Origin: Erythrobacter sp. QSSC1-22B
GTDB taxonomy: Bacteria; Pseudomonadota; Alphaproteobacteria; Sphingomonadales; Sphingomonadaceae
Direction of reading: 5' to 3'
Length of the DNA stretch: 64,000 bases
Assembly (NCBI RefSeq): GCF_001678665.1
Contig: NZ_LZRP01000002.1
Location: 124,001-188,000 of the forward strand
Shown: one piece after another, positions 1,904 to 47,141 of the stretch
Numbering within the stretch: the first letter of the stretch is position 1
Layout: every line of letters begins with the position of its first letter
Position numbers and translations under genes: made by a program
Notes under the pieces: model-generated
Told to the model about the DNA's origin: nothing
The model's database searches: none
What the model saw: only the letters and a program-made list of their open reading frames with translations

Positions 1904-2818
1904 CTATATCGCGTTAGGGAGGGGCGGCACCTGCATTGGAGCCGCCCCTCTCCATCGTTTCAGGACCAGCACCTGGGGACCGCCGCCCATTGTCCGGCGA
2001 TATAGCAAACTGGTCAGTTGCTGACTGGTGCCCCCAATATCGACCGTGCTGCGAGCCCAATAGTAGCTGGAGGTGACGCCGCTGCCCGGTGGCGGGAAAA
2101 TCCCGCTAAGCGCGAGGTCCTCGCGTGTCAGCCCGCCGCCCTTGCCACCGCCGGCAGTCCGGGCAGCCATCAGCTTGCGGGCCTGGCCGGGATTGTTCAG
2201 CAAAATGGCGGCAAGCATTTCGGGTGCCGTGTTGAGGTTCACATCGGTCGGTTCAGGCAGCACCGTTGCAAGCACGGCGAGGCGTCGTATTTCGGCCAAG
2301 GTCAGGCCCGCCCCCTGGAGATCGCCGAGCCCCACAATACCGCGGCTCGTCTGAACCAGATCCGCGATCTGCCCGGCCTTCTCGGGAGACAAATCGACAG
2401 CCGCCGCAAGCGCCGCGAAATAGTCATTGGTGACGGCATCGCCGCGCACCAGATTGTTGATATTGAACATGGCTTGGGCGTCAGACACATCAAAACTGAA
2501 ACGTCCGCCATCAATCGCTGCATCATCGTCTGCGATCGCTGCCCATTCATCCTTGCGCGAATCGCTGTCGGCTCCGCGTGCCAGGTCACGCCGCAACGCG
2601 GCAACAGCAGAAAGCTCCGCACCGCGGGCAACCGCGCTGGCTTGGGTTGCATTGCGCAGGCGCAAGCTGAGTTCGATATCGGTGTCGTCGCTGGCAATCA
2701 TCATCACCAAGATCGCCGTGGCCAGCATCACAATGACGAGCACGTTGATCAAAACCATTCCCTGCTCCCCGTCCGAAGCATTTTTGGTCGTTCGATCGGG
2801 ACTTGGAACCACCATCAA
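1904..2818 (-). CDS. gspK: type II secretion system minor pseudopilin GspK
   Basis: 304 residues. It has a prepilin-like N-terminus: a short basic leader, Gly20, then a hydrophobic helix (MVLINVLVIVMLATAILVMM). Position +5 after the Gly is Asn instead of Glu, as is usual for GspK, which caps the pseudopilus tip. The large following domain carries the GspK helix-hairpin-helix-like part (ADLVQTSRGIVGLGDLQGAG) and NLNTAPEMLAAIL. It overlaps gspJ by 4 bp (ATGA). It acts in the inner membrane/periplasm as tip subunit together with GspI and GspJ. Unusually, gspK-J are separated from gspG-H-I by about 7 kb. Confidence 0.92.
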   Translation of the reverse strand: MMVVPSPDRTTKNASDGEQGMVLINVLVIVMLATAILVMMIASDDTDIELSLRLRNATQASAVARGAELSAVAALRRDLARGADSDSRKDEWAAIADDDAAIDGGRFSFDVSDAQAMFNINNLVRGDAVTNDYFAALAAAVDLSPEKAGQIADLVQTSRGIVGLGDLQGAGLTLAEIRRLAVLATVLPEPTDVNLNTAPEMLAAILLNNPGQARKLMAARTAGGGKGGGLTREDLALSGIFPPPGSGVTSSYYWARSTVDIGGTSQQLTSLLYRRTMGGGPQVLVLKRWRGAAPMQVPPLPNAI

Positions 2819-3345
2819 ATTTCATCCGGCAATTCGATCAACCGACGTACCGGACCTGCGGTTTGACTCGGTTGCGGTGCCAACTCCAGTATCAGCTCAA
2901 CCGCCTCGGGACGGACTGGATCCTCTTGCGTGACCGGCGTAACAGTCCAGGCGCCATTTTTGTAGAACCGCAACCCCATCCCGGCCACTCCCATAAGTAT
3001 CGGCAACTCTGTATCGCCCGTCTGCCGGTAGAGCGCGCCATCCGCGAAGCGATAGACCACCGGGTAGTCGCCCACCGCGCTGCTGCGGGTGAACACCATC
3101 GTCCCTCCTTCGATTAGCGGTCCGGACGACAGTTGTTCGATGTCTGCGGTCACGAGATAAAGCACGCGCTGAAGCTCCGACAGGCGTTCGCTGCGTCCTT
3201 CGGTGCGCTGCTGCACGCCGATAACCGTTTCCACGAGGCCGACTCCAGCGAGCGAAATCAGCGCGAACAACAACAAGGAAACGAGCAGTTCGACCAGCGT
3301 GAACCCGCCGCTCTCGTCTGTCGGGTTAGGGACCGAAACGCTCAT
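2815..3345 (-). CDS. gspJ: type II secretion system minor pseudopilin GspJ
   Basis: 176 residues with a textbook type IV prepilin N-terminus: Gly14 followed by FTLVELLVSLLLFALI, with Glu at +5 (Glu19), to be cut and methylated by the prepilin peptidase. The rest fits GspJ: a region of beta strands ending with RPEAVELILEL. GspJ joins GspI and GspK in the pseudopilus tip. The gene overlaps the downstream gspK by 4 bp and is preceded, 30 bp upstream, by the LivK-like gene on the same strand, so the three could be one transcript. Confidence 0.92.
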   Translation of the reverse strand: MSVSVPNPTDESGGFTLVELLVSLLLFALISLAGVGLVETVIGVQQRTEGRSERLSELQRVLYLVTADIEQLSSGPLIEGGTMVFTRSSAVGDYPVVYRFADGALYRQTGDTELPILMGVAGMGLRFYKNGAWTVTPVTQEDPVRPEAVELILELAPQPSQTAGPVRRLIELPDEI

Positions 3346-32002: not shown

Positions 32003-32100
32003 ATGGATTGCTTCGCTACGCTCGCAATGACGAGGGGGCTCATTTGCACGCACCCTCCCCTTCGTCATGGCGAGGAGCGTAGCGACGACGCCATCCACGG
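32003..32100. repeat. paired inverted palindromic repeat (copies A and B) beside the GIY-YIG gene
   Basis: Copy A (32003-32034, ATGGATTGCTTCGCTACGCT and on to CGCAATGACGAG) and copy B (32063-32100, CGTCATGGCGAGGAGCGTAG and on to GCCATCCACGG) are inverted versions of one ~35-bp unit. The 28-bp spacer continues the pairing (GAGGGGG with CCCTCCCC), so the whole can fold as a long hairpin. Copy B ends 1 bp from the stop codon of the GIY-YIG gene. Confidence 0.85.
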
Positions 32101-32101
32101 A

Positions 32102-32407
32102 CTACCGCTGCAGATCGAAGAACAGATCGCGCCATTCGGGGTTCGCCGCCTCGATCAGCGCGATTTTCCGCTTCCGCGAACCGGCCTTGAGCTGCTTCTC
32201 GCGGAGAATCGCATAATCCATCGTCGCGTGGAGCTCGAACCACACCAGATGTTTGCAGCCGTAGCGTTTCGAGAACCCCTCGACCTGACCTTCGCGGTGC
32301 TGCCAGGCACGCTTGGGCAGGTCCGAGGTTACCCCGCAGTAGAGCGTGCCGTTGCGGTGGCTGGCCATGAGGTAGACCGCGGGGTGGAAATGGCGGTGTT
32401 GGGCCAT
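32102..32407 (-). CDS. GIY-YIG nuclease-domain protein enclosed by repeats
   Basis: 101 residues from the ATG at 32407. It is a single-domain UvrC-like GIY-YIG protein: VYLMASHRNGTLYCGVTSDL is the GIY-YIG strand pair, followed by the catalytic Arg in LPKRAWQHREG and the metal-binding Glu in YAILREKQLK. Such proteins should be able to nick or cut DNA. The start codon lies in CCATGG, the inner edge of repeat copy C, and the stop is 1 bp from repeat copy B, so the gene fills exactly the space between two inverted copies. An earlier in-frame start (32431) would place eight residues inside the repeat. Substrate unknown; mobility of the unit is inference. Confidence 0.85.
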   Translation of the reverse strand: MAQHRHFHPAVYLMASHRNGTLYCGVTSDLPKRAWQHREGQVEGFSKRYGCKHLVWFELHATMDYAILREKQLKAGSRKRKIALIEAANPEWRDLFFDLQR

Positions 32408-32506
32408 GGATTGCTTCGCTTTCGCTCGCAATGACGAAGGTGGGTTGGGCAGTCCCTTACCACCCTTTCGTCATGGCGAGGAGCGCAGCGACGACGCCAT
32501 CCATGG
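32404..32506. repeat. paired inverted palindromic repeat (copies C and D) beside the GIY-YIG gene
   Basis: Copy C (32404-32437, CCATGGATTGCTTCGCTTTC and on to CGCAATGACG) and copy D (32469-32506, CGTCATGGCGAGGAGCGCAG and on to GCCATCCATGG) are inverted. The spacer again extends the stem (AAGGTGGG with CCACCCTT). Copy C supplies the start codon of the GIY-YIG gene on the minus strand. Confidence 0.85.
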
Positions 32507-47010: not shown

Positions 47011-47141
47011 CGTCATTGCGAGGCGTGTAGCGACGATGCAATCCATGGGCTGAGCCCGCTGACTGCCGCAACCGGCGTTGGCAGCCGACGGTTTGGGCCC
47101 TGGATTGCCGCGCCGCCTGCGGCGGCTCGCAATGACGATGG
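47011..47141. repeat. inverted repeat pair (copies E and F), same family as around the GIY-YIG gene
   Basis: Copy E (47011-47049, CGTCATTGCGAGGCGTGTAG and on to GCAATCCATGG) and copy F (47099-47141, CCTGGATTGCCGCGCCGCCT and on to CGCAATGACGATGG) face each other exactly as copies B and C do around the GIY-YIG gene, but only 49 bp separate them. The pair looks like an empty (gene-less) version of that unit. Copy F has an extra GC-rich internal hairpin (CCGCC/GGCGG). Confidence 0.8.

Follow-up and report, generated by a model that had tools for sequence, protein, structure and literature searches.

CGTC-tagged REPs are palindromic repeats defined by a CGTC end, a stem that begins with AT pairs and a CCA tail (PMC3733652). 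In the sections of that study drawn on here they are described as occurring mostly as inverted dimers, mainly in alphaproteobacteria, and as taking in neisserial dRS3 and rickettsial RPE-4 and RPE-6. These sections also state that the repeats 'apparently lack a dedicated transposase', report no tyrosine transposase gene flanked by CGTC repeats in the CGTC species examined, and mention the deletion of REPtrons in some species (PMC3733652). The study's intragenic set left out REPs inside hypothetical proteins of under 120 aa, which may be one reason why a partner of about 100 aa went unnoticed. In REPIN/RAYT systems (REPtrons), as set out in the part of PMC3116915 used here, class-matched palindromes flank a gene, inverted doublets serve as non-autonomous units, and gene and repeats co-diversify. 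The enzyme of these systems is an HUH tyrosine (Y1) transposase, their repeats have a GTAG head, and RAYTs are described as single-copy (PMC3116915).

We report here that the palindromes around a small GIY-YIG nuclease gene in a 64,000-nucleotide stretch of DNA (the window) appear from their sequence to fit the published CGTC-tagged REP superfamily, and that the link between the GIY-YIG family and CGTC-tagged REPs is strong and general. Our main reading, to which we assign a probability of roughly 0.6, is that the GIY-YIG protein is the cognate nuclease of these REPs and spreads them, in a REPIN/RAYT-like arrangement built on an unrelated enzyme. As the enzyme behind the spread of CGTC palindromes, the nuclease is a strong candidate. 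No paper linking GIY-YIG genes to REPs was found among the matches listed in a search of open-access PubMed Central papers.

The likeness to REPIN/RAYT extends to the flanking of the gene by class-matched REPs, to inverted doublets as putative non-autonomous units and to the co-diversification of gene and repeats. The enzyme here is a GIY-YIG protein rather than a Y1 transposase, the head of the window units is CGTC rather than GTAG, and the genome of the window has no PF01797 match. RAYTs are described as single-copy, whereas related copies of the gene-bearing unit are dispersed in two genomes. The GIY-YIG system would work in the manner of REPIN/RAYT without belonging to it, since neither the enzyme family nor the head motif of REPIN/RAYT was found here.

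Features of the nuclease locus and of a gene-less doublet in the window
Feature	Position	Strand	Basis
Copy A, CGTC unit, outer	32003..32036	minus	detector core 32004-32031
Copy B, CGTC unit TCGTCAT...ATCCACGG	32062..32100	plus	detector core 32064-32097
GIY-YIG nuclease gene	32102..32407	minus	ORF list and Pfam match; 101 codons plus TAG
Copy C, CGTC unit TCGTCAT...ATCCATGG (minus-strand reading)	32404..32437	minus	detector core 32407-32435
Copy D, CGTC unit TCGTCAT...ATCCATGG, outer	32466..32506	plus	detector core 32470-32503
Proposed gene-bearing unit, B and C inverted around the gene	32062..32437	minus	architecture; about 376 bp
Gene-less doublet, same class, inverted units	47012..47136		detector and core-motif matches

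We called oriented units with the pattern GTCA, stem, xxCCA. Copies A to D each read CGTCAT, stem, ATCCA, and all four carry TCGTCAT, which agrees with the unpaired CGTC (or TGTC or CCTC) head of the superfamily. Copies B and C both point their tails toward the gene and form the 3' and 5' ends, respectively, of the gene-bearing unit; copies A (CGTCAT head on the right, ATCCAT tail on the left) and D stand head to head with B and C, respectively. The motif GTCATNGCGAG has six matches in the window, four at 32003-32506 and two in the gene-less pair, against 0.29 expected, and none of 100 shuffles reached six; a chance origin of the window repeats is therefore excluded. The doublet consists of a plus-strand unit (47012-47045) and a minus-strand unit (47101-47136) with tails inward and a 55-bp spacer, and lies just past the end of an ORF.

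The superfamily stem is specified as 8-9 bp beginning with AT pairs, with a loop of 4-5 bp and a CCA tail. The window units have the ATCCA tail and the AT pair, and the stem of their class is longer and interrupted; for the four units taken singly, folding does not surpass that of shuffles (z -0.05 to -0.70). The short stem is seen at many other loci. As single strands, A+B and C+D form hairpins of about 100 bases with z scores of -5.2 and -6.6, and none of 200 shuffles did as well. Multiple copies and inverted dimers, the remaining marks of the superfamily, are also present, with 21 exact class-A units in the window's own genome and close pairs in its relatives. The 150 listed class-A units of relatives include 48 neighbouring pairs within 80 bp, and 46 of these pairs have their tails inward (one is head to head and one in tandem); 30 of the 46 tails-inward spacers measure 19-22 bp, most commonly 20 bp. 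In this light the gene-bearing unit resembles a doublet in which the gene takes the place of the spacer.

The start codon of the gene (32407-32405) lies within CCATGG (32404-32409), the inner edge of copy C, which thus includes the ATG; its TAG stop (32104-32102) is one base from the end of copy B at 32100. The initial annotation had described a 101-codon GIY-YIG gene amid four palindromic copies that exactly fills the space between B and C, with outer copies that extend the repeats into long hairpins. The first of these points is borne out by the sequence, the ORFs, the Pfam match and the oriented-unit detector, the second by the boundaries just given and the third by the folding of A+B and C+D. 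A further proposal, that the repeat supplies the start codon, holds at this locus and fails as a rule: 61 of the best 80 named homologues have an upstream unit, whose end lies anywhere from 0 to 197 bp ahead of the aligned start. That the ATG falls within the repeat here is an accident of the local spacing.

The encoded protein has 101 residues and a single GIY-YIG domain (PF01541, 3.2e-12). At least 167 of 170 aligned proteins retain each of Y12, Y23, R33, H37, E70 and N89, and for all of these except H37 the count is 167-169; we take the Tyr, Arg, Glu and Asn to be the GIY-YIG catalytic residues, on the strength of work on I-TevI. The predicted fold is confident (mean pLDDT 93.6). A structure search with it gave no match below E 0.001, the nearest solved structures being UPF0213 1zg2 (E 0.0013), the UvrC N-domain and Slx1, and the sequence search agreed on the nearest solved relatives. 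With the domain and the Tyr, Arg, Glu and Asn in place, the sequence and the modelled fold place the protein in the GIY-YIG nuclease superfamily. The stand-alone GIY-YIG proteins of UPF0213 (1zg2, 1ywl) are its closest solved relatives by both sequence and fold. A distant GIY-YIG gene of UPF0213-like appearance, L106 (G243, 2813-3083), has no CGTC unit beside it, whereas the window gene sits within units; L106 is possibly a non-mobile relative. Homologues, where annotated, are mostly called just GIY-YIG nuclease family protein.

Flanking by CGTC units is a general property of this family. In the best 80 named loci, which are those most like the window protein and in which class A is over-represented, an oriented unit was found within 250-300 bp of the gene in 73 and on both sides in 57, with seven loci having none. 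The best 30 loci of a phylum-wide sample gave a unit in 28, on both sides in 25 and none in two; once the six loci from the window's own family are removed, the counts are 22 and 19 of 24. Among 398 other ORFs of the family and named loci, taken as controls at a distance of 900 bp or more, 28 had a unit on either side and one on both, and a coarser control with approximate gene positions yielded 53 and 4 of 500, respectively. Elsewhere in the named loci the unit density was about 0.095 per 550 bp, and the same loci read backwards contained 5 units in 583,216 bp. The outcome that would have told against the initial proposal, most homologues lying outside repeats, was thus seen in neither sample. 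Nor is the system confined to alphaproteobacteria, as first suggested: by record title (with some names possibly wrong, since many records are metagenome bins), the best 80 named loci come from alpha-, beta-, gamma- and zetaproteobacteria, Bdellovibrionales, Nitrospiraceae, Elusimicrobia and others.

A search of the 199 genomes of the window's own family at E 0.001 or better detected a homologue in 140, with up to 11 matches per genome. A class-defining palindrome lies within 200 bp of 87 of 90 family genes and on both sides of 72, compared with any palindrome in 35 of 434 background windows and two or more in 3. The three genes without a class label are L047 and L074, which have variant palindromes in their flanks, and L106; three gene fragments with stops (L050, L079 and L088) lie outside the 90. 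With L106 left out, a relaxed detector found a unit at 68 of 89 genes and on both sides of 56. A strict detector applied to 73 genes found one upstream of 39, downstream of 38 and on both sides of 31, against 17 units in 500,944 bp elsewhere in the family loci. The nearest upstream unit points inward rather than outward by 37 to 24 in the best 80 named loci and 43 to 18 in the family, and the nearest downstream unit by 43 to 26 and 49 to 14, respectively.

Nine loci from a plasmid collection were inspected by eye, and CGTC-type flanks were seen in Sphingobium, Rhizobium CIAT894, Sinorhizobium, Novosphingobium, Neisseria and Shinella; in Rhizobium K1/93 the sole unit near the gene is a variant that lies about 0.2 kb downstream. 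We discarded a plasmid gene as an identity, with 33 matching records in that collection that are mostly large replicons, some of them chromosome-sized. A phage gene (no match in the phage collection) and a defence gene (no PADLOC match) were likewise set aside.

Two genomes, G427 and G315, contain three dispersed copies each of the gene-bearing unit, which are 87-91% and 75-87% identical, respectively. All six start at CTTCGTCAT and five end at ATGACGAAG; the right end of the L272 copy has diverged. Copies in genus g108 have terminal inverted repeats, as insertion sequences do, of about 67 bp and finishing at CTTCGTCAT. The flanks of the six copies are unrelated, apart from a left flank of about 130 bp common to L275 and L276. 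Pairwise omega among the six genes is 0.04-0.16, and the nuclease gene is under purifying selection; one copy, L277, lacks R33 and H37, which may be a sign of decay. The copies compared in other multi-copy genomes were more diverged. No target-site duplication was visible at the six dispersed copies or at the Sphingobium sites, three 50-kb stretches of Sphingobium having too few repeats for such a test, and no clean pre-insertion site was found at the dispersed-copy or genus orthologous sites compared.

Orthologous sites in related genomes exist in several states. At one such site in the genus of the dispersed copies, 28 readable genomes comprise 6 with the gene unit, 4 with a solo palindrome (called by eye) and 18 with neither; two further loci of the 30, L316 and L330, lack the left flank. 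A Sphingobium plasmid site has the gene region in seven records, in one of them in two pieces, and four records without the gene divide into two with a solo palindrome and two with neither. Gene-bearing and solo-palindrome states also occur at a Sinorhizobium site. A site in a third genus, which by eye we take to lie between rplT and pheS, has the gene in three of ten genomes, a gene-less doublet in one and no unit that we could see in six. The window site itself, between an HNH gene and a kynureninase gene, has the nuclease gene in its own genome and one other of its genus, according to a profile search of 30 loci (1.5 kb on each side where available) that also matched L106; there, L110 has a single unit without the gene, and L005, from another genus, has the gene. 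The predicted presence/absence variation between related genomes is therefore seen as gene unit, solo palindrome or neither at orthologous sites, and together with the flanking on both sides in 57 of the best 80 named loci it supports the initial analogy to REPs and RAYTs with a nuclease in place of the transposase. As for the mobility suggested at the outset, the dispersed copies in two genomes support it for the gene-bearing unit, and the part played by the enzyme stays an inference.

Gene-bearing units recur between what we take by eye from the flanking sequence to be sucB and lpd (L042, L046, L053, L055, L063, L064 and L065) and between sucC and sucD (L026, L031, L055 and L079), so named in the same way; gaps between TCA-cycle genes are an apparent preferred site. 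G530 and G432 (L309 and L308) each have a contig with two closely spaced nuclease genes, with 88% identity over 460 bp in the former and 70% over 339 bp in the latter.

The solo palindromes bear on a first alternative, in which the gene is of the homing type: the nuclease would cut a solo symmetric palindrome, the gene would be copied into the break, and the gene would be a parasite of REPs that spread by other means. At three sites the gene-less allele is indeed a symmetric palindrome, identical to the two flanking units' outer halves, and GIY-YIG domains are known from homing endonucleases, as the cited portion of PMC1564403 describes. The window protein shares its catalytic domain with those enzymes, and its gene is possibly selfish as theirs are. 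Homing endonuclease genes differ in being located in introns or inteins and in having a second DNA-binding domain; the window gene encodes a single 101-aa domain and lies in an intergenic unit between palindromes. The solo alleles fit homing, yet they are explained equally well by deletion between direct repeats of 8-10 bp, which arise from palindromic ends. Moreover, homology between dispersed copies stops at the CGTC ends in five of six copies and the DNA beyond is mostly unrelated, so the gene copies are not confined to one homologous site, and the abundance of the repeats tracks the gene (see below). We therefore regard a homing origin as unlikely. Cutting followed by repair or strand transfer at new sites and homing into solo palindromes are both routes that fit; dispersal to new sites is favoured because the copies have mostly unrelated flanks.

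The palindromes that accompany the gene differ in their stems between loci (TTGCGAG...GCAA; CCCGCG...; CCTGCG...; CCGGCG...; CCAGCG...; CTGAACTTG...; CCGGACTTG...), and the unit ends are alike across the stem classes, with heads and tails varying at some loci. Gene and stem class are specifically paired. Mapped on a protein tree that leaves out L106 and in which, with few columns, many forks are unresolved, stem class requires 18 changes against a mean of 56.1 after shuffling, and none of 200 shuffles was as low; class A forms one clade, with one change and a support of 97. Two genomes, G104 and G193, each have several nuclease genes with different palindrome classes, so the match between gene and palindrome is not merely a match to the common repeat of the genome.

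This pairing weighs against a second alternative, in which the nuclease serves the host or the element by resolving or trimming palindromes, through the processing of hairpins or cruciforms, and so limits the repeats instead of spreading them. The structural neighbours UPF0213, the UvrC N-domain and the branched-DNA nuclease Slx1 would suit such a role, and the solo palindromes resemble deletion products. A host factor is, however, not expected to sit inside the repeats, to be dispersed and to co-diversify with them, or to be present as several genes of differing class in a single genome, and we consider this explanation quite improbable.

Repeat numbers were compared with the presence of the gene. 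The 16 family genomes whose best match falls in the class-A clade (weaker matches were not all classified) contain 7-86 exact class-A units each, and at least 7 class-A repeats are present in 16/16 of these genomes against 23/183 others (p 2e-13). In 299 genomes of the phylum, at least 10 copies of CGTCATTN{14,44}AATCCAG were found in 19/75 genomes with the gene and 8/224 without (p 2e-7), and at least 50 copies in 13/75 and 3/224 (p 2e-6). With a third pattern in the family, at least 6 copies were counted in 32/140 genomes with any homologue and 3/59 without (p 0.002). All of these p-values are too small, because the thresholds were picked after the counts had been seen and the genomes are not independent by descent.

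The association has exceptions in both directions. No gene was detected in 8 of the 27 phylum-sample genomes with at least 10 CGTC repeats, and no class-A gene in 23 of the 39 family genomes with at least 7 class-A repeats; G108 has 113 class-A copies and no detected class-A gene. Loss of the gene after the repeats had spread is a possible explanation. Conversely, the single pattern used in the phylum sample occurs fewer than 10 times in 56 of its 75 gene-bearing genomes. In G362, which has 56 CGTC units and no detected nuclease gene, several of the 13 units listed have a palindrome nested in the stem.

CGTC-rich genomes without a detected gene, one of which (G108) has a Y1 transposase match, would suit a third alternative, that the gene is cargo captured by CGTC repeats that RAYT-type or other transposases move, but we judge this very unlikely, with a class-matched passenger across many genera being hard to explain and the tyrosine transposase genes of CGTC species not being CGTC-flanked, as far as the sections cited go (PMC3733652). 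A RAYT as the mover was rejected, PF01797 (Y1_Tnp) being present in 31/199 family genomes, absent from the window's own and unassociated with class-A repeats, which were found in 7/31 genomes with a Y1 transposase and 32/168 without (p 0.63).

The reading that we prefer, a nuclease that spreads its cognate REPs, can be put as a model. The mobile unit would consist of a CGTC palindrome, the gene and an inverted CGTC palindrome, the CGTC ends pointing outward and the ATCCA tails toward the gene, and the gene-less doublets with spacers of about 20 bp would be its non-autonomous relatives. We infer that the nuclease binds the palindromes of its own class, which it would probably recognise as a hairpin or cruciform, that it cuts them, and that cutting drives dispersal: repair of the break or strand transfer would spread both gene-bearing units and doublets, and joining of the strands by host repair is the simplest guess. 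To the stronger statement, that this protein is the long-missing dedicated enzyme of CGTC REPs and that a one-domain nuclease of about 100 residues, whose gene-bearing unit measures about 0.4-0.5 kb, drives the dispersal of a very widespread family of bacterial repeats, we give an even chance.

If true, this would be a class of mobile element with a chemistry not previously known for transposition, and the possible means of movement of miniature elements would come to include an enzyme that is not a transposase. CGTC REPs are widespread and, according to the sections of the 2013 account used here, were then without an enzyme (PMC3733652); none was found in that work, and the gene partner of about 100 aa described here, matched to them by class, makes their spread testable. 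A function would also be given to a large family annotated mostly just as GIY-YIG nuclease family protein.

Among the plasmid-collection loci inspected by eye, the homologues in Planktothrix and Spirosoma (L228 and L229) lie near related-looking repeats that start with GTCATTCTGAG or GTCATCCCGAG, which are possibly CGTC-like classes in Cyanobacteriota and Bacteroidota. The genome of the window also has a second, divergent GIY-YIG gene (L003, G000:C7:178965-182177) that lies between inverted copies of a different palindrome (CGTTCGTGTCGAGCGAAGTCGAGACACG), which suggests a second repeat type with the same architecture.
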